Shown here: positions 49,523-64,000 of the stretch, one piece after another
Numbering within the stretch: position 1 is the first letter of the stretch
Layout of the letters: every line of letters begins with the position of its first letter
NCBI GenBank assembly: GCA_021030905.1
Contig: JAGFMI010000025.1
Coordinates: forward strand, 434,001-498,000
Reading direction: 5' to 3'
Source: Pyrenula massariospora
Lineage: Eukaryota; Ascomycota; Eurotiomycetes; Pyrenulales; Pyrenulaceae
DNA: 64,000 nt
The notes under the pieces: model-generated
Seen by the model: the letters and a program-made list of their open reading frames with translations, nothing else
What the model was told of the DNA's origin: nothing
Database searches by the model: none
Made by a program: the position numbers and the translations under genes

Positions 49523-51352
49523 ATGCACAAGACGTCCAGTGATCCAGTTCGAACAACCGCTACAAAAGCTTATGAATACCAAAGGCTCGGGGGCTCTGGA
49601 ATTCGACTTCTCCATGTGTCTGGTTGTCGTCAGCAAATACCACCATCGCACAGCCAACTATCAATTGAAGATTGGTAATTCCAAATGTGTACCTTTGATA
49701 ACTTTGCATGCGTCCCTACCTACAACACTGTCTCATACTTTTGGGGCGACAACTCGCGCCAATGGGCTCTGACTCTTCAAGATGGAACGCAAATCGGGAT
49801 TACGAGGTCAATCCGAGTCGCTCTTCCGCATCTTTGCGCCCAATGCTCGACGACGTATCTTTGGATCGATCAGCTTTGCATCAATCAGGATAATACCCAG
49901 GAGCGTAACCAACAGGTTCAAAATATGGGGCGTATATACACGGAAGCTCACTCTCTAATCATCTGGCTTGGCTTACCAGATGATACAACGCAAGATCTCA
50001 TTGAAATGGACTTATGCAGTATCGATGACCGACAAGGACCAAGTTTCGACTCGAAAAGAGCCCTAGACATGCTTGAATCGGTATGCATGACTGGAAACCA
50101 AGCTAGGGAACTTTCAAGGCTGTTTGGACGACCATGGTTTTGTCGTGCCAGGATCTTCCAAGAATTTGTATTAAGTCGTGACCGAGTGGTCTTGATAGGA
50201 TCTCATATTCTTAACCTGAAATCGGTGACTACACTTGCTAATGGATTAAATCATCAGGATGAGAGCGCGCCCTTATTTTCACTAATTAGACTTGCAAACA
50301 GATCCCGAAATCTTCGAGTGTTGTCCACCTGGGCGGATTTATGGCGCACCGATTATCGGTTCGACCTCGATAAGCTGCTGTATTCAATTCCCGGGTCCTT
50401 TGCAGCATCCGATCCCCGAGATCTCATATATGCATTTGTTGGACTAACAGTTTCCGCCGGAGGTCAAAGCTTTGGAATTGTCCCCAACTATAAGGAAGCG
50501 CCATGGGAGGTATTTGCCGCTGCAACAAAGGCGATTTCTCGGGAGAGAGAAAACTTAGAATTTTCCAAAATGATAGGCTCATCTAACGTCGACATTCCAT
50601 CTTGGGTTCCAGACTGGTCCTTGCACGGTCGTATATTGCACACTGGATTCTTGGAATTAGATCAAGACGTTTTAGATGCATCAAGTGGGCGAAAATACTG
50701 TGAAGATCCAAAGGGACGACCGTTGAACGAACTAAGGATTGAAGGGCGAATTATTGATAATGTTGTGGAAGTTGGATTTGAGGTTGGTCGGATGCGGAGT
50801 CGGTCTCGAGATACAATAGGCCAGCGTGTGCTGGACTCCTTACCGGGAAATGAGTTCATCAAGCATATGGAGTTGCAGAACCTTCTCTTAGATTGTCCGC
50901 GCGGTCTATTGAAGGAAAGAATTTTTAGGGCCTAACTTACTAATGGACCTCGGGGGCTTGAGCTCTCGGCTGAAGACCTTAAGAGTTGCCTGGCTACATA
51001 TGAACATCTTGTCGACCCTGCTAATGTTTCCATTCTCAACGAATTCAGTGATGAAATTTCTGACACCTATCCCGAAATTTTCCGGAAGCTTTGTCATCTC
51101 TGGGAAATGAGTGCCCCATCACTCAGTGGCCAGCTTCTGGTGACCGAGACAGGTAGACTCGGTATAGGACCACTCCACGCGGAGATCAATAGCTCTATCA
51201 TCATTGCTCATGGCTCCAAAACTCCTCTTGTGGTTCAGCGGAATGCAGCCGGAAAGTATGAACTTCAAGGGCAGTGCTGTTTGGAAGAAGCAATGTTTGG
51301 AGAGGCTTGTACCTGGGCCGAGGAAGATGCCGATGAATTTGTGCTTGTGTGA
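49523..51352 (+). pseudogene. HET-domain protein pseudogene with two in-frame TAA codons
   Basis: One plus-strand frame spans 610 codons from the ATG at 49523 (MHKTSSDPVRTTATKAYEYQ) to TGA at 51352, broken only by TAA at 49676 and TAA at 50933. Before the first stop it reads GSGIRLLHVSG, the usual strand ahead of a HET domain. After it come the HET motifs TYNTVSYFWGD, LWIDQLCINQDNTQERNQQV, MGRIYTEAHSLIIWLG and RPWFCRARIFQE; in the last, Arg replaces the usual Trp. After the second stop, LTNGPRGLELSAEDLKSCL and a C-terminal block (GRLGIGPLHAEINSSIIIAHG, YELQGQCCLEEAMFGEACTW) match the regular tail of HET proteins. HET domains trigger cell death after fusion of incompatible strains. A 72-base intron (50904-50975) could hide the second stop, but no intron can hide the first without removing the HET motif. 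Confidence 0.75.
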
Positions 51353-52796
51353 AACCTTACTCGTATAAAATCGTAAGATATATAGTTTTGTACATCACAA
51401 TTGTAAGGACAGACCAGTCTGATCCAAAAAGCTTCATTTCTCCGTAGATTGATTTTGATAGCTAGTGTCGCATATCTTACAAAGGCCAATCTGCCTGGTA
51501 GACATGAAACTCGATAGACGGACTTGTTTCCTGGAATGTATTGATTAGCCATGAAATTTGAGGATATCGTTGAGATTTTCCAGACATCATAGTCCCTTAA
51601 ATACCGTGGGTTCTTCGCGGCAAAAAGTATGTCGATTTCAAGCTTCACGCAGCGAGAAAGTGTACACAAAAAAACGGCGTATAGATCGAGATTTTATCAC
51701 TGCTAAAACTCTTCGGACATTCTGCTGCTGCTATTTGGATTTGTACTGTAATATTGTGCTCGCGCGAGAATGTCATCAGCGAATCTATATTGGTGGTACA
51801 GCAAAGTTCACAGCTTAGTGTTTCGTCATCCTGAGAGCACTGCAAGCAAAGATGCTAATTATCATCGAATTTCTCCTTGGACTGAGACTAGGATCTGATT
51901 CTAAACTGGTAGGTTGATTTAGCGATTGAGAAGTAGAAATTGGCTGAAGATTTGACCCAATTTGGCGGACGAAAATCTTTGTGAGAACATATTTGTCATC
52001 GGGTTGCTTGGAGCATGCGTCGTCCCTCTTTTTAATTGGATGGCAATAGGTGACGGCCCAGAGGCGGAGGATTGGCGGCGGCGCACCCAGCGCAATGCGC
52101 AACACCGAAGAACCGAATCGGTAGATCGTAACTAGACCATAGACGAATGAGGGTAACATTGAATGCTGCGTGCGATAACAGCGTCAAACGAGGCTATGAA
52201 TTGCTGTCGGAACGCTCGGAGTTTCATACACGGGCACTTTTCTTGATGCGAAACCTCTGTGCATTGATTTCAGAGTTGACCACGGCTGCCTTTTTCGTTT
52301 CATCAGGATGACTCCTCGGAGTGTCCCGTTCGCATTGCGCGAAAATCGTGTGACCTTCGGGATGCTAGGAGCGAAACTATCGATAACGCTTGTGGTCTCC
52401 GAGACAAATGAGCCCACGCCACATGCACCAATATGTTGGCACTACAAGCTTGGTGCAATGTATACCCCGGCTCGCGGGCGACAACCGCAAAACCTGCCTT
52501 TTTTAGGGGAGACCGGCAGTGGCGGCCAAGGCGGCTTTCCTGATTGGAGAGTACTTTCTGGTTGCTTTGCCCCTCACTCGTGCTTCGATCACCATGAGAC
52601 CCCAGAACCTGTCTTTTCTGCCTTTTTCTGAGTCTGCCTTGCCTCTACTCTGCCTTGCTTGCAATCAGGCCTGCCTTCCTACGAAATCGTTGACACCTAC
52701 GTGGCCGTCCTGTATAGCACACATAGATCGCTAGTACGTTCATAAGTGTCGCTGGCGAGATTGAAAGTTAAATTTCGGTCCGAAAGCCACGCGTCG
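51353..52796. other. Intergenic region
   Basis: Short ORFs on both strands (134 codons on minus at 51265-51669 overlaps the HET tail) show nothing. The 52308-52734 plus frames look non-coding. Confidence 0.45.
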
Positions 52797-55700
52797 ATGA
52801 CCATCGCTTCTCAGCAACTGCTACCTGGATCGCGTCGAGCAGCAGTAGATGAGAACGCACCGGGTCCCTCGCTCAGCGATGGCACGTTACAACAGGACAA
52901 CGTAGAAACTCAATCATCTATAAAATGCTGGAATTGCAGAAAGGACCACCAAAAGGTGACCAAAGTCTTATCTAGTCAGAAACAGCAGTGCTAAACTGTG
53001 TTGGTAGTGCGATCGGAGCAGTCGCGACGCGACATGCACGCGCTGTATACAGAAGAATTATACGTGTGGAAATGACCAGGAATCGTCACAGAAAGGAGGA
53101 CGCCGCAGAGTTCTGACTTTCTTGAAATGCGAACAATGTCGAACAGCGAAAGTCAAGGCAAGCATCCAGTCCTCCTCATACAACGCCCTAATACAACAAA
53201 GCATTTACTAAACTGACGTGACCAGTGTGATCCGGCAGAGAGAGCGTGGCCTGATGTCAAATGTGATAGGTGCAAGGAAAAAAATCTTCCCTGCTCAGAA
53301 CCTCTGGAACGGCCGAAAAAGAGATCGCGTCAAACGGAGATCGTTCTCCAACCGGCTGCATCGCAAAACCATGTGTCAAACACTTCAAGAATGTCAAGCG
53401 CACTGATTCAAGGAACACCAAGCCCACAGCAGTCAAATACGAGGCTCGAGTCGGAAACACCCGCACTGTCACTAGAGTCACTTCCGCATCAACCTTTTGG
53501 GACCACCTCAGAAAACGGCACCAGAAGTTTAGCTTTTAACGATCATCGCCCAGAACAAGCATCTCTTTGTCCATCCGGCGATACGCTGCATCAACCGAGC
53601 GCCACTATTCCTTCAGAGCCATGGACACCGACAGAATCGCACTGGATGGGGGATATGGATCGTGTGTTTTGCCCACAAATCTACAGAATTTCCATTAAGA
53701 TAACTTGAACACAGGGACCCGGCACTCTCGAGATGTGGCCTCCAGCAGTATACTTGAGTCTTTTGGGGGTAACCCTGAATCTGTATTTGAGTACTACATC
53801 CCCAAATCTCTTTGTATGTAGGTGCTAATCATGATATTGATAAAGTATTGTCGTAGTTCATGGCCTCAATGCATATAATTATCGATCTTGGACGGCTCGA
53901 GGTCCGCACAGGACCTGGCTGAAGGATTTCCCGCCTAGTAATGAGCTATTTTCCCTTGCTCGCTTGTTCATCTTTGAATATGACGCTAAGGCAACATTCA
54001 TGGGCTCCAATACCCGTGCCTTGATAGATGAAACCGCGGATATTCTGTTGTACAAGCTGGCAGAAGCAAGATCAAAAGATCCAGCTAAAAGTTCTCAACC
54101 TTTAATTTTTATGGCTCATAGTCTCGGCGGGTTAATTGTCAAGTCAGCAATGTCTCAGATCGTCAAAGATAGACGCTATGCGGAAAATCTGGAATCGGTT
54201 TGTGGAATAATATATTTCGGTGCCCCAACTGGGATCACAGAAACGGAGAATAGGGCTTATGATGAAAAGACTTCTGTCCTAGCCAAAACTTTATCGAAGG
54301 CTTCGGAGCTTAATGCGCATCTTGCGGCCGAATATGATTCAAGGGCTTGGATGAAATTCTTAGATCTACCCACTCTGAACTTTTTGGAATCTCGGGAAGG
54401 GACGAATCTGGAAGCCAACTTTGGCCCTTCGAATTCTAGTTCAGCTTTCTGGGAAGGACGGAAATTGAATGTTCAATTGGATGCGGACCATATTTCGATA
54501 TGCAATTTCGAGGAGAAAACCTTGGAAGAGCAACATACCATACTCGAGGATATGAAAGGCTTAGTTTTCAGAGCTTTAAAGTTTAAGCAATCACGGAAGC
54601 TGGACAAGTTGCGGAATGCACCTTTCCTCTGCCCACCCAATAATAATCCCTACACTATTAATCGAGATCAAATCATGGACTGCCTTACACGAGCATTTTC
54701 TGCTGCTTCAGGGGGTGGCGAACATACAAGTGGAAACACGCCTCGAGGCAACATTATTTCGCTGTATGGTTTGGGGGGTGTTGGGAAGACGCATATTGCC
54801 AACCAATTTGCGCACAATGTCAAAAAACGATATCCACAAGTAGCTGTCTTCTGGATTGATGGAAGTAGCCATGATTCATTTCATCGGAGCTACGAAGCCA
54901 TTGCGGACAAGTGCGGCATAGCTGCTTCCAACGAGCTCACTTGGGCCGATATGTCTTCAAGAACTCTGGAATGGCTCCAGAGCGTCTCAAATATGAAATG
55001 GCTGTTAATAATTGATAATGCGAACAATCCAGAGGACTATTTTGGAGCAAGGAAGTCCAATGGCATAAAGGGATCTAACGAGGCTGCCAATACGGGAGCA
55101 GGAGAAGAGGATGTGAAAATACCTTTAGGGGAACTCATTCCTCGCTGCGGACAAGGCTCAATATTGGTGACTACACGAAATAAAGAGACTGCTCTGAAAT
55201 TCTCTGGAGAAGATGTTATTCAGGTCCCTTCGTTTCACTCGAAAGACTCTGTTGAATTACTCCGAGTTCTAATCAAGGATAAGAGACCTTCTGACACAGA
55301 GCATGTCCTCCATCAGCTCGCTGATGCACTAGAACATTTGCCACTGGCCTTGGTACAAGCTGCCGAGTACATTGATAAATACTCGTTTTCCGTTGCAGAA
55401 TATCTCCAGGTCTATAACGAAGGGGATCGGGCAGCGTTTCGGCTTCTAAGCTTGGCCATTGAACGCAACAGTCTTAGAAATCATTGGCAAACCTGCATAA
55501 CCTGGGTTTGGATGGATTGTTTTGATCGTATTGAGGAAAGCTCCCCTCGGACGGCTGAACTGCTCAAAATCTTAATCTTTTTCGGCTGTGAATCTGAGAT
55601 TCCTGAGTTCCCTTTGATGGAAAAGGAAGAGAGCCTGTATGATTTTAGAGAATCAATCGGTACGCTGGCAGCATATTCATTTATCACTAAGCAGCCTGAT

Positions 55701-57344
55701 AAATGCATTCAAATGCATCGGTTTACACGTTTGATTGGTAGGGGTTGGCTCGTGAAAAAAGACAACGATGAGTTCTCAAGAAATGGTGAGGAGGCTGCAA
55801 AACGTCTGGAGTACTGTTTCGAGGAGGCGGAGAAGAGGGAAATGCACGGTCTAAGCGAGTTGAATTTACGACAGCTGTACGCCTCGCATGCGCGTACAGT
55901 CATCTCAGAAGGGCTGAGATATGCAAAAGACAAACGGTTGAAGTATCTTAACAGGCTCATTGAACTGCTCGGAGATTACTATATTGAACGAGGGAATTTT
56001 AGAGACGCAATCGATCTCTTCAAGAGCCACATTTCCCGGTGCGATTCAGCGTCTGAAGAGTCGTCGATAGCGGCCAACAAAAGTGTTCTCAATCTCGCAC
56101 GAGCGTTGATATGCTGTGGAAGATACGAGGAGGCCGAAGAACACTTGAATAATCCATCGTTGTCCAAATCAGAATCGCCAAAAGATCAGCAGTCACCCTT
56201 GCTCCTAATTCAAGAGTACAAGCTGCAGCTAAGGAATCGCCAGGGTTACGCTGAATTGGCAGAGTTTGCGGGGAAGGACCTCCTACGCCAAATTCTCCCA
56301 GATGGACACGTTCGTCATATTAACCTCGACCAAGCGACGGCAGAAGTCCGTAGCATCGAGCCTAAGCGAATACCAGAAGAGGTTCGTAGCATTCGCCGCA
56401 TCCTCTCTGTCCGCGCAGAAGTCGCAGTCGCCCTTCGTCAACAAGGAAAATTTGATGAAGCATTAAAAATGCAGAAGGAAGCTTTTGAGCAAGGTGCTGA
56501 TTTCCTTGGACTAACACACCCGGAAGTACTTGTGTTGATGGTTGATCTTGCGACTTCTTTCGCCACATGTGGAAATGAGCAGGGGGTGCAGGTTGAGCGA
56601 CTTTACGAAACTGCATGTGAAGGCTTGAAACGAGAGTGGACAGAGAGTCATCCGTCGACTATTAGTGCGAGTAGCATATATTCTTGGTACATGGGCTTTA
56701 AGGGTCGTCATGACCAAGCAGAAGAGCGTCTACGAGCGACTCTGTTGGTGGCCGAGAATAGTCTGGAATCCGACCACCCAGAATTAATGTTCGCCCGCAG
56801 CTTGCAGGTCCTTGCCTTGAGCCGAAATGGCAAAGATGATGAGGCAAGACAATTGGTCGAAAAGCTCTTCGAGACTAAGACGGCCGAGAAGCTCACTACA
56901 AAAGCAATCTCAACCGGTCTTCTAATGATTGCCATTCTTGCTAAATCAATGGACAATGGCATAAGGATGAGCAAAGCAAGGCTTTTCTTAAGCATTTTAG
57001 AACAGGCGATCATGAGACCCTGGATTCGAATCTTTAAGGACAAGGATTTCCACATCGACTGGAATCAAGAGGCAGTGAAGCTTCCAAGGTCGCGTACAGA
57101 CTGGTTGATGGACAGTGGATTCGAAGATCAGCCGCAGCCGACAATCTATCTCCCTCAGAAAGTTGCCAGAGACCTATTTCTCATCATCCAAGAATTGGAC
57201 CCTGCGAATGCGGAGGAGTTGTGGAGCAGGTCCGGAATAGCGAAGACAGTCGTTGACCTAGTAAAAGCAAGCCGTAGCGAGTCAACGCCTAGTGATGCGT
57301 ACTCTTTGGAGAAATATCTGGGTCAAAAAGCAAAAGCGGTATGA
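52797..57344 (+). CDS. NLR-like protein: two Zn2Cys6 modules, alpha/beta-hydrolase, NB-ARC, TPR-like tail
   Basis: Inferred exons 52797-52955, 53008-53157, 53226-53661, 53715-53813 and 53857-57344 give 1443 aa. Module 1 has Cys44-X2-Cys47-X6-Cys54-X8-Cys63-X2-Cys66-X6-Cys73; module 2 has Cys94-X2-Cys97-X6-Cys104-X11-Cys116-X2-Cys119-X6-Cys126. Both match GAL4-type binuclear zinc clusters. A Ser/Thr/Pro-rich linker follows. A lipase-like alpha/beta-hydrolase comes next (HGLNAYNYRSW, then AHSLGG with nucleophile Ser370). The NB-ARC shows P-loop GLGGVGKT at 586-593, Walker B WLLIIDNA at 663-670, SILVTTRN at about 716-723, LEHLPLALVQAA at about 773, and MHRF at 901 in the MHD position. Helical TPR-like repeats fill about 1005-1330 (GRYEEAEEHL, GKFDEALKMQKEAFEQ, GRHDQAEERL). 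By analogy with fungal NLRs it should sense a ligand, oligomerise and trigger a response. Exon edges around 53814-53856 are least certain. Confidence 0.85.
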
Positions 57345-60064: not shown

Positions 60065-61913
60065 ATGTCGGGCAATGTCGCCAGTAAACAACATGAGAAC
60101 GCGTTGTCCCCTTCGCCGTCTCCGACACGTTCGAGTGTACGATCGAAAGTGCGTAGATCATCGGGCTCGAATAAAATTTTGATGATTGGATTCGATGGTG
60201 AGACTCTGACGTGAACTGTATTACCGCTTTTAGTAGTTGACTGTGACTTCCCAGGCACATTAATGGACAGCCTCAACGGCTCTCGTAGCACCATTGTTGC
60301 TGCTTTACCTAGTTTCATCCATAATGATGAAGGGGCTTTGGATCTTTATACTGGTGGACTAGGCACCGATGGGGGAAGAGTCGACCTGATTTGCGGTAGT
60401 AGGTTCTCATTTCTCTCACCTGTAGTAAGAAGGCGCTCACGAGACCAAGCTCTCTTCGGCAGGGGATTCAAGCGCAAGGTCATCGATGCCTACAGTGAGT
60501 TGTTCAAGCCATCAAATGTAGCTCTGGCTCACCTTGCTCAGGAACGCTAAGCGTGAACTATCGACCAGGTGACCGCATCATCATCGACGGTTACAGCCGA
60601 GGTATTATCTTCTTGTTGATAGTTTCTAACATGCATCCAAAGCTGAGTGATTCTAAGGAGCCTTCGCCGCTCGCGCGCTTGCAGCTCTGCTAGAGCTTCT
60701 AGGTCTCCCCAACAAGGATCTCGTTGCCCCGAGGCGCAAAGCAGTAATGCGAAAGATCATCAAAAAAATGGAACAACAAAAGTTATGGGATGCAGGGGTG
60801 GCAAATAAGATAAAAGCGCTAGGAAAGGGTCATTGTAGGTCATTTTGGATAAATCATCCTTGTTGCTATTTACTTACCAGTCGGAAAGGGCATCACTACG
60901 TTCCAATTGACGCGTTGTGCCTTTTCGACACCGTTGCAGCGCTTGGCCTGCCACGAAAGGGTATCGCCGGTCCATTTTCGAAAGCCGCGCAATGCTTGAA
61001 GTTTTCGCGAGATCACAGTGGTCTCGAGCGAAGACTACAACAGATCCCATCAAGTAAGCTTGTGCCCTATTTGAGATGATCTCCAGGGGCTGACGAGCGT
61101 CTATCAGATGTAAAACATGCTTACCAGGCTCTCGCAACTCAGGAGTGTCGTGCAACCTATAGCACACAACTAGCCACCGTCTCCCCAGTAGCACCAGATG
61201 ATCAATTGAGACAGGTCTGGTTCCCAGGGATTCATTCTGACATGGCTCAAGATAATTGTGAGCGGTGCTTGACGGATAACGTGCTCGCTTGGATCCTTGG
61301 GCGACTGCATGAAGACTTGAGGCTCAAGATTAACGAAAGTGCTCTCTTTGAACGTTTTCCTGCATGTGATCGGGATGCTCTTTCTCGTTGTTGCAAACCA
61401 TTATCATCCGAAACACCTTCCTCGGCATCGTCATCTTCAGTGTCGTCTTCAACATCGTCGTCGCTGCAGGTGGCTACTCCATCATCATCTGCGCCAGGTT
61501 CGCCCAGGCTGGCTTGTACCAATTGGCTGGGAAGACCTTTGAAGAAGATCGGTAGAGTGCGTAGACTCATCCATGGCGAGAAACCCCGCACTCCAGGACA
61601 CACCAGGGGCCGTACCATGGAACAGGTCAGCATTGCTGTCCGGCTCCGTGGGTACGGCCGTGATCAATCCGACAGCACCTTACTTCCAGGCTATCGCTTC
61701 AACTCTGATTGCCGAATGTATAGAAGGACCTACACGGAGCGGCGGTCAACCATTTTTGGCGGGTCAACTCTTCGTACGGACTCCACCAGTGGTTCATCGT
61801 TTTCCTCCAGAAGGTCCATGTCGCCGGCTGACACCGCTGCGCCTTTTCTGGAAGAGGCGACGCCGACTGCCTTGGAGAATGCGTTGCTCAGATATTCGGA
61901 AATTGCGACTTGA
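60065..61913 (+). CDS. DUF2235 family serine hydrolase (Tle1-like alpha/beta-hydrolase)
   Basis: Exons 60065-60197, 60255-60494, 60542-60601, 60658-61053 and 61108-61913 give 544 aa; all four introns are 47-57 bp with GT-AG ends. The family start KILMIGFDGT is created across the first intron. GGLGT (about 95-99) and NYRPGDRIIIDGYSRGAFAA with nucleophile Ser143 (GYSRG) are typical, as are DTVAALGLP with Asp235, the VKHAYQALA helix, and VWFPGIHSDMA with His319. Together these form a Ser-Asp-His triad. DUF2235 proteins are related to bacterial type VI phospholipase effectors; the fungal members are uncharacterised. In this copy the usual GGG-Y after HSD is replaced by QDNCERC. The C-terminal 170 residues are Ser-rich and probably disordered. 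It sits between an NLR-like and a HET gene. Confidence 0.85.
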
Positions 61914-62696
61914 GAAAAGGTTCGTCGAGCTTGACGGCGAGGATTCCTAGCCGATGCTGAGTGTCATCCCAGGCTGATAATAAAGCGACCGACTCGTTAG
62001 TGAAAGAGCGATGTAGGTAAGGATTGCTTTATTGTTAAACTATTGAGAGATGTTTCAGAATTCAACATTGAGAGGCGTCGGCGTTTGCTTTGGGGAATTT
62101 GGCTGGATGATACCTTTCCTAGGATGGAAATGTGCTTTTCATATTTCACCTTCTCTATTCCTTAATGTCATCGACAGGCAAGGAGGTGACATCGGTATCG
62201 CATCACAAGAGAAGATCAATGGGGGAGACAAGACGTAAACAGACAGAAGCCGGGGAACCATAGAACCCCGAGGGCTTCCTTATAACCCCCAACACCGTAC
62301 TTTTAATCCGTAGTCAGCCTCGTGGTGAAACCCTTCCAAACCCTCTCCTTTTTGCCTAAACACCGAAAGCTCTGCGCCTAATCTATTGCCTAGCCATCAG
62401 CCTTCCACATTTCCTGTTCATAGCTAGTGCAAGCCGAATCGAGGTTGCAAAGGCATTCTCGGGCTTCAACGCTGTCGCATAGTTGGTCACAACAGCGCCT
62501 TGGCTGCGAGGCTTTGGGGGCTTGTATGCCTATGGTGCGGGGGTTTAGGGGTTCTGGAGGGGGTGAGCCTTTGACGAGGCGACGAGGCTGCTGCGCCACC
62601 ACGGGTTGATTGCTGAACTCTGGGAATGAGGGAGGGAGTAGTGATTTTTGCTGCACTTGTAGGCTCTGCTGGACCAGCTGTTCTTCTTCGACCACC
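61914..62696. other. Intergenic region
   Basis: A minus-strand ORF at 62390-62704 overlaps the HET start codon and is judged a shadow. No other gene seen. Confidence 0.45.
61979..61984 (+). terminator. Possible polyadenylation signal AATAAA
   Basis: AATAAA about 65 bases after the stop of the DUF2235 gene. Confidence 0.4.
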
Positions 62697-64000
62697 ATGG
62701 CCACAAACGACCAGTGGCCAAGATACGACGACTATTCTCCTCTTGACCGCTCTAAAAAAGAAATCCGCCTTCTCCGCCTCCAACGGCTGCCAAGCGGCGG
62801 TCCTGTCACCTGTGAGATTATCCACAAAAGTCTAGATGAACAGCCGCAGTATGATGCTCTGTCCTATTATTGGGGAGCGCCGAGCGAGACCAAAGCGATC
62901 TATGTTAATGGCGCTGAAGTCCACGTTCGAAAGACGCTTTGCCGTTTTTTAGAATGCCTCACCGCTCGATTCAGCTCCCTTGTTGTTTGGACAGATGCCA
63001 TCAGCATTAATCAAGAAGATGTCGAGGAACGAAATTGGCAAGTTTCCTTGATGGGCGATATCTTTAGTCGCGCCGAAAATGTCTACGCATGGCTAGGCGA
63101 GGGTGATCCGGACTGCGAGTATGCCATGGACCGGATCCGAGAATTTGATGGACCGGTAAAAGACGACAAAATAATGACTGATCCAAATATTGGACCCTAC
63201 ATAGAGGAACTGTTTCTGCGGCCGTACTGGACCCGGATTTGGTGAGTTTATCTAAGTTTCAGTCATCAATAACATATCCATTCACTGAGACATTATCATA
63301 AGTATGACAATTTACTGTGTGGATAATCTAGAGTAATATGGATAGCTGACAGTGTAGGGTAGGATCGTTCAGGAGACCGTTCTTGCGCAAGCGTTATGGC
63401 TTGTCTACGGGGAGAGGATTGCTCCGTGGCAAAGCGTTCGAGATGCTTACACACGAAAGGATACCGACGAGCACACGGTACGACGTACCTTTAAGCGCGA
63501 TGCTATTATATCTATGAATGAAGCCGACCGTCGCTTCTCTCGGCTCCAGGCAGTCAAAAAGGTGCCTAGTTGTGAAGGTCGTCATTTATTCGACTTGGCT
63601 ACAATTTTCAAGGATTTGCGCTGCGTTGATCCAAGGGACAAACTATACGGACTTCAAGCTATAGCCACACCTGGGTCTCGCTTAGAAGTTGATTATAGCA
63701 AGTCAGTATCGCAAATTTTTCTCGACGCTCTATCAGCGCACACTTTTGAATGTCATTTATTAGGCCAAGGGCATAAAGCTCGCGAGATTGACTCAAGCGG
63801 CAGACCGTCTGACGCTTTCACGCTGGCCTCGGAACTGTGCTTGAGTTTTCCTATGCCTCTATCAGAACTTGAAGCCTTCTTAAAAGTCTATCCAGCACAT
63901 AACATGCTCTTAAGGTTGGACTATTACATATCTCCATGGGGCGAAAAACTAGATCATGAGATTGATAAACTGTTTTGTAATAGTGATGGTGAGCCAGAAG
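62697..64000 (+). CDS. HET-domain protein, 3' end beyond the window
   Basis: The ATG at 62697 (ACCACCATGGCC) opens exon 1 (62697-63241). A 121-bp intron (GTGAGT ... GTAG, phase 2, CTGAC branch-like site) leads to exon 2 from 63363, which is open to the window end. The join restores the invariant W-IVQE: RPYWTRIW continues as IVQETVLA. HET motifs are complete: IRLLRLQRLPSGG, YDALSYYWGAP, VWTDAISINQEDVEERNWQV, MGDIFSRAENVYAWLGEG. After them DLRCVDPRDKLYGLQAIA is the usual downstream block. Such proteins act in heterokaryon incompatibility by inducing cell death, often partnered with NLRs. Unlike the HET pseudogene at 49.5 kb this copy has no break in the visible 394 residues. Confidence 0.88.

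Follow-up and report, generated by a model that had tools for sequence, protein, structure and literature searches.

A predicted fungal NLR gene with two N-terminal Zn2Cys6 modules in Pyrenula massariospora

Introduction

Surveys of fungal NOD-like receptors (NLRs) have catalogued SesB-like, HeLo-like, Goodbye-like, PNP_UDP, HET and patatin domains at the N-terminus, with outputs that include alpha/beta hydrolases, nucleoside phosphorylases, pore-forming domains, Goodbye domains and amyloid signalling (PMC4986451, PMC9815663). In addition, 185 non-canonical domains have been reported among the NLRs of Sordariales, where zinc fingers rank among the three commonest types and both decoy and sensor roles are discussed (PMC12258605). 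Here, we describe a gene on the forward strand of a 64,000-nucleotide window (contig JAGFMI010000025.1, positions 434,001 to 498,000) of the Pyrenula massariospora genome (37.8 Mb, 33 contigs). Located at 52797-57344 of this window, the gene is predicted to encode an NLR comprising a SesB-like hydrolase, an NB-ARC domain and tetratricopeptide repeats (TPRs), preceded by two Zn2Cys6 modules of the kind found in fungal transcription factors.

An earlier note on this DNA had regarded a double zinc cluster joined to the hydrolase of an NLR as apparently undescribed. A term count over the main texts of PMC4986451 and PMC9815663 returned neither 'zinc' nor 'Zn_clus', and a literature search for Zn2Cys6 domains in proteins of NB-ARC, NACHT or NLR type, which covered main-text parts of papers, recovered no paper recognisably describing this fusion. 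PMC4859500 mentions Zn2Cys6 and NLR-type domains only separately; PMC12134995, PMC6034849 and PMC8306183 also contain such terms. Tandem Zn2Cys6 modules as such are not new, because PMC10305253 mentions, in its introduction, a transcription factor that bears two such domains. The note's reading is partly supported: no Zn2Cys6 NLR was recognisable in the literature so covered or among 132 relatives, while NLRs with zinc fingers of other types are already published for fungi. What appears to be new is the Zn2Cys6 double module on a SesB/NB-ARC/TPR receptor, seen at one locus.

Results and discussion

Two complete Zn2Cys6 modules are encoded by a predicted five-exon gene

The splice model (52797-57344, + strand) joins five exons across introns at 52956-53007, 53158-53225 (GC-AG), 53662-53714 and 53791-53845, yielding a predicted product of 1439 residues without an internal stop. 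Met1 is the earliest in-frame ATG past an upstream stop; 14 bases 5' of it lies a CGG-T-CCG inverted pair, at 52776-52782. The features of the gene are as follows.

52797-52955, + strand: exon 1, residues 1-53, with Met1 and, in C44 and C47, the first half of zinc module 1; splice model.
52926-53067, + strand: Zn2Cys6 module 1 (C44-C73), with intron 52956-53007 immediately ahead of C54; Pfam Zn_clus 28.5 bits.
53008-53157, + strand: exon 2, residues 54-103, the rest of module 1 and the first half of module 2; splice model.
53128-53294, + strand: Zn2Cys6 module 2 (C94-C126), with GC-AG intron 53158-53225 immediately ahead of C104; Zn_clus 24.5 bits.
53226-53661, + strand: exon 3, from residue 104, the rest of module 2, PKKRSR and a hydrophilic linker; splice model and codon score.
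53715-53790, + strand: exon 4, running from the linker into the hydrolase; its frame and its end are both uncertain, with several fused alternatives.
53846-57344, + strand: exon 5, hydrolase, NB-ARC, TPR and stop; open frame 53844-57344.
53846-54590 (limits approximate), + strand: SesB-like alpha/beta hydrolase; alignment A2, with Ser366 (54120), Glu455 (54387) and His489 (54489) kept.
54738-55425 (limits approximate), + strand: NB-ARC; Pfam 1.4e-10 and motif positions.
55884-56819 (limits approximate), + strand: TPR region of kinesin-light-chain type; Pfam TPR_12 3.5e-17 and PDB kinesin light chain 1.

In the spliced product, module 1 has cysteines at residues 44, 47, 54, 63, 66 and 73 (C-x2-C-x6-C-x8-C-x2-C-x6-C), and module 2 at residues 94, 97, 104, 116, 119 and 126 (C-x2-C-x6-C-x11-C-x2-C-x6-C). 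All twelve stand where the earlier note had placed two full six-cysteine patterns, at residues 44-73 and 94-126. Scored singly, each module exceeds the curated Pfam Zn_clus cut-off of 21 bits, and on the whole protein Zn_clus marks two stretches (E 7e-7); by cysteine spacing and Pfam score, both are complete Zn2Cys6 domains. Chance cysteines were rejected as an explanation in view of two full patterns over the cut-off, and chance is a poor explanation also because in both patterns an intron ends exactly before the codon of the third cysteine. A recent tandem duplication was not supported, the score of 78 between the two modules being reached by 21 of 55 other module pairs of the genome.

Zn2Cys6 domains of transcription factors are very common in fungi, and this genome has at least 142 matches to the Zn_clus profile; the two modules of the window, each split by an intron, are not among them. 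For comparison, we read the DNA at the eight of these matches that start at profile positions 10-13, approximately at the third cysteine. An AG immediately ahead of the third-cysteine codon, as in both window modules, was found in four of these split genes (L065, L067, L068 and L070) and was absent in the other four. By this intron position, common to half of the split genes sampled, the zinc exons of the window are real transcription-factor-type exons; in this respect the modules are built like the ordinary Zn2Cys6 genes around them in the genome. Codon use favours the chosen frame in exon 1 as well. The donor of intron 2 must be GC (AAG/GCAAGC), as the GT just ahead at 53152 would give C-x2-C-x4-C and break the spacing. 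Retention of this intron (53158-53225) would terminate the protein after module 1 and half of module 2, and because the protein would thereby be truncated within module 2, splicing of the GC-AG intron could act as a switch.

Module 2 carries K-x-K ahead of its third cysteine (K-x-K-C) and is followed by a basic PKKRSR stretch (residues 133-138, 53313-53330), features that are compatible with DNA binding. Its best solved relative is LEU3, a weak PDB match (E 0.0037). Module 1 reads CRKDHQKC where PUT3 (PDB match, E 0.68) has CRKRHIKC; its histidine before Q-K-C also occurs in PUT3 and in 3 of the 11 other modules read from the genome, which carry a basic residue at the position of its D.

The receptor body retains hydrolase and NB-ARC motifs

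The order of zinc modules, hydrolase, NB-ARC and TPR read in the earlier note was borne out by Pfam and by alignment with 44 relatives (A2), and a domain search of the spliced protein, which that note had proposed, gave clear matches to Zn_clus, NB-ARC (41.3 bits; cut-off 23.5) and TPR_12 (62.8 bits; cut-off 30.1). Pfam detects the hydrolase only weakly: DUF676 scores 16.5 bits on the whole protein, below the cut-off of 20.3, and narrowly exceeds it with 20.4 bits on the excised domain. Its identity is clear from alignment A2, in which the H279-G-L strand, S366, E455 and H489 align with the relatives. Conservation among aligned letters is 40/44 for Ser366, 44/45 for Glu455, 45/45 for His489, 44/44 for the P-loop Lys588 and 44/45 for the Walker B D664; on the strength of this conservation, Ser366, Glu455 and His489 are the putative catalytic residues. 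The GTPH-x-G hydrolase motif is replaced by APTGI (54222-54236), with T402 in place of H (41 of 45 rows) and I404 in place of G (also 41 of 45). The closest of the listed relatives, P0013 (53% over the region of residues 266-800; 62% to exon 5 in A2), likewise lacks GTPH-x-G and reads NPNGI, with N and I at those two positions; its upstream part is unseen because its sequence begins inside the hydrolase. Loss of this motif with Ser, Glu and His kept possibly marks a sub-branch with altered substrate or activity.

Within the NB-ARC domain we identified a P-loop (GLGGVGKT, 582-589), Walker B (LLIIDN, 660-665), TTRN (716-719) and an MHD-like MHRF at 897. An NB-ARC domain with P-loop and Walker B, together with C-terminal superstructure repeats, places the predicted protein among the fungal NLRs (STAND). 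Retention of the hydrolase Ser/Glu/His together with the P-loop, Walker B and MHD-like motifs makes a functional receptor body probable. In a profile comparison of the NLR body, the TPRs match kinesin light chain 1 in PDB (E 9.3e-55), and positions 288-988 match the DNA-binding NB-ARC-TPR regulator AfsR (PDB 8k60, 8jke; E 2.8e-21). Neither SARP DNA-binding nor bacterial activation domains are among the Pfam families listed (best 25 of 32); only NB-ARC-TPR is common with AfsR.

Relatives in databases and in the same genome

Homology searches, each scoring the 8000 candidates sharing most words, returned 12 proteins for the full-length product and 135 for residues 266-800, 120 of them listed; 132 proteins, some partial or bacterial, were compared. 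In the 45 relatives where the HGL motif could be placed, it starts at residue 6-111 with at most three cysteines before it, as against residue 275 here. A search with residues 36-142, limited to proteins that have short exact words in common with the query, yielded 11 candidates, none at E <= 10, and with exons searched singly the genome itself holds no other match to the zinc part better than E 0.02. One locus (L020) considered as a second case was rejected, its half pattern lying in a frame other than that of the hydrolase and being closed by a stop. Nine further NB-ARC loci of the genome, screened for unsplit modules only, contained no unsplit zinc module. Scans of prokaryote genomes and viral contigs gave no relative with flanking DNA, and repeats sought around the gene gave no result.

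A possible DNA-bound receptor and its alternatives

As an explanation of this locus we tentatively favour, somewhat short of even confidence, one gene encoding a SesB-type NLR (hydrolase, NB-ARC, TPR) whose N-terminal double Zn2Cys6 module holds the protein on DNA, with an AfsR-like output. A transcription-factor-type double module would have been joined to the NLR N-terminus via a long flexible linker, of which 72% are disorder-promoting residues. By analogy with other NLRs and AfsR, the TPRs would sense a ligand and the NB-ARC domain would exchange nucleotide and oligomerise, which may in turn activate the hydrolase. The pair of zinc modules on one chain and the basic stretch would retain the receptor in the nucleus, bound to CGG-type DNA, where oligomerisation would alter transcription at bound genes, besides the hydrolase signal. 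The more specific proposal that the NLR is itself a sequence-specific DNA-binding regulator, the Zn2Cys6 pair placing the sensor on promoters and perhaps on those of flanking HET genes, we regard as doubtful.

That zinc modules and NLR lie on one polypeptide is, from the gene structure, quite probable. In exon 3, a single open frame covers module 2 and the linker and is joinable to the hydrolase; exons 1 and 2 end between codons whereas exon 3 does not, so that skipping exon 3 would break the frame. The earliest ATG of the hydrolase frame (54000) falls inside the domain, and the hydrolase therefore needs an upstream exon; the frame used here for exon 4 has a stop at 53696 and no later ATG. In exon 3 the in-frame codon score is positive in all five 90-base sub-windows and beats the other forward frames in four. 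Further, the chosen intron 4 places a D before IVVVHGL, as in 9 of the 12 A1 relatives covering that point, with S in the other 3.

Several observations weigh against this gene model or against a transcriptional role of its product. The GC-AG intron 2 is a weak point of the splice model, and intron 4 is not unique: the one used here, 53791-53845, gives F-D-IVVVHGL, and a second fused path (53664/53714/53783/53845) gives 1437 residues. Permissive enumeration of joins from exon 3 to the hydrolase produced 49 stop-free joins, all with two introns. Under a simple splice-path score (donor plus acceptor plus branch site), the best real path (5.5) uses the same intron 3 but has intron 4 at 53769-53856. 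In shuffled controls, an equal or better path arose in 17 of 150 and some path in 89 of 150; since 17 shuffles reach the real score, the frame connection alone is weak evidence, weakly better than chance. Exon 4 does not resemble the corresponding part of the relatives beyond chance, its similarity being equalled in 57 of 200 shuffled controls, and its codon use is indifferent to frame, while exon 2, at -0.02 versus 0.06 in another frame, does not favour its own. The six-cysteine pattern occurs in 0 of the 132 relatives, none of which has PF00172 by listed Pfam annotation, and zinc modules were found in none of 37 hydrolase/NLR loci of the same genome (L010-L038, L047-L054; 1.5 kb flanks, some overlapping). 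The fungal_trans domain is not among the Pfam families listed for the whole protein (best 25 of 32; weakest E 0.081). This middle-homology domain is common, though not universal, in Zn2Cys6 transcription factors. Finally, the region upstream of the gene shows no enrichment of CGG pairs (24 versus 19.4 +/- 7.5).

Were the locus to make two products, a reading we consider rather unlikely, a small independent protein with both zinc modules (263 residues, stop 53706-53708) would stand beside an NLR starting in exon 3 (M159, M244 or M247), at 53733 or at 54000, and the zinc part would never, or only sometimes, be joined to the receptor. Such an arrangement is consistent with the in-frame methionines of exon 3, with the stop at 53708 that is met when intron 3 is left unspliced, with the position of the HGL motif in the 45 placeable relatives and with the weak shuffle control of the splice path; moreover, ATG 53733 with an intron at 53783-53845 also arrives at IVVVHGL. 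Conversely, the next ATG follows the zinc-frame stop after 24 bases, a gap that leaves little room for the terminator and promoter of two genes (the upstream HET gene and Met1 are 1.44 kb apart). One frame of exon 3, its codon use resembling that of coding sequence, extends across both parts, and a start at 54000 would remove the first strand of the hydrolase.

With a single polypeptide, the main rival to a DNA-bound receptor is an integrated bait, which we hold possible though on the unlikely side. The modules would mimic a transcription factor targeted by a foreign or non-self protein, whose binding trips the NB-ARC switch so that the hydrolase kills or signals; like the WRKY domain of plant RRS1, they need not regulate transcription. 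Such integration is reported for RRS1-WRKY in plants (PMC8685902), and for Sordariales, sensor or decoy roles of zinc fingers are discussed and kinase domains are put forward as decoys (PMC12258605). Absence of the modules from all 132 relatives is as expected for a young, lineage-restricted addition. This reading is weakened by the lack of a closely related donor transcription factor in the genome (best other match E 0.02, exons searched singly, which could miss a diverged donor), unlike the CHK-2 kinase case, and by the N-terminal position, which is the usual effector slot in fungi. The same absence from relatives, the disorder-promoting linker and the codon score of exon 2, not above other frames, would also fit zinc modules with an ordinary part in protein binding or folding, or a recent neutral fusion that plays no role; this we judge improbable, all twelve cysteines and their spacing being kept although both modules need precise splicing.

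If the fusion is true, the gene would represent a fungal NLR with direct transcriptional output or, as in plants, a transcription-factor bait, with sensing tied to DNA or to bait-type recognition, and both could be tested with one gene. The finding is interesting, yet based on a single locus.

Genomic neighbourhood

Three further genes on the same strand flank the NLR gene.

49679-51352, + strand: separate upstream HET-domain gene; Pfam HET 2e-26 on 49679-50932, with a second open frame to 51352.
Exons within 60215-61910, + strand: downstream Tle1-like phospholipase gene, apparently intron-split.
62610-63999, + strand: second HET gene, downstream; domain search.

The gene block has a G+C content of 0.46-0.47, compared with 0.48-0.54 to its left. 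Judged by its gene content, this same-strand HET/NLR/phospholipase/HET block is likely a non-self-recognition (incompatibility) cluster.

Comparison with known systems

The receptor body follows the order of hydrolase, NB-ARC and kinesin-light-chain-type TPRs known from SesB-like fungal NLRs such as Podospora anserina Pa_2_10340 (PMC4986451). The SesB-like relatives aligned here, among which Pa_2_10340 is not included, share its Ser, Glu, His and P-loop. Unlike theirs, the present hydrolase follows about 273 residues that contain two Zn2Cys6 modules, and has APTGI in place of GTPH-x-G. The zinc-finger NLRs of Sordariales likewise fuse a non-canonical zinc-binding domain to an NLR, although those named are of C2H2 or treble-clef type and 52 of 57 are C-terminal (PMC12258605). 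In the five N-terminal cases the zinc finger is the only N-terminal domain, whereas here the domains are Zn2Cys6, in tandem, and ahead of a canonical effector.

With GAL4-type Zn2Cys6 factors such as LEU3 and PUT3 the modules share the six-cysteine pattern; they differ in standing as two modules 20 residues apart, attached to an NLR body, with fungal_trans not among the best 25 of 32 families. A transcription-factor DNA-binding domain built into an NLR is likewise described for plant RRS1-WRKY (PMC8685902). In RRS1, by contrast, the domain is a plant WRKY domain and the receptor acts in a two-receptor system with RPS4. The WRKY domain of RRS1 lies towards the C-terminus.

By analogy, the large SARPs come closest in function to an NB-ARC-TPR chassis that bears a DNA-binding module. 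AfsR and its kin share the layout of an N-terminal DNA-binding part, an NB-ARC switch and C-terminal TPRs, but are bacterial, carry their DNA-binding part and a bacterial activation domain in place of the zinc modules, and have no hydrolase (PMC10972967). If the favoured explanation is true, ligand sensing, transcription and a hydrolase effector would be combined in one chain, as a eukaryotic counterpart of AfsR.

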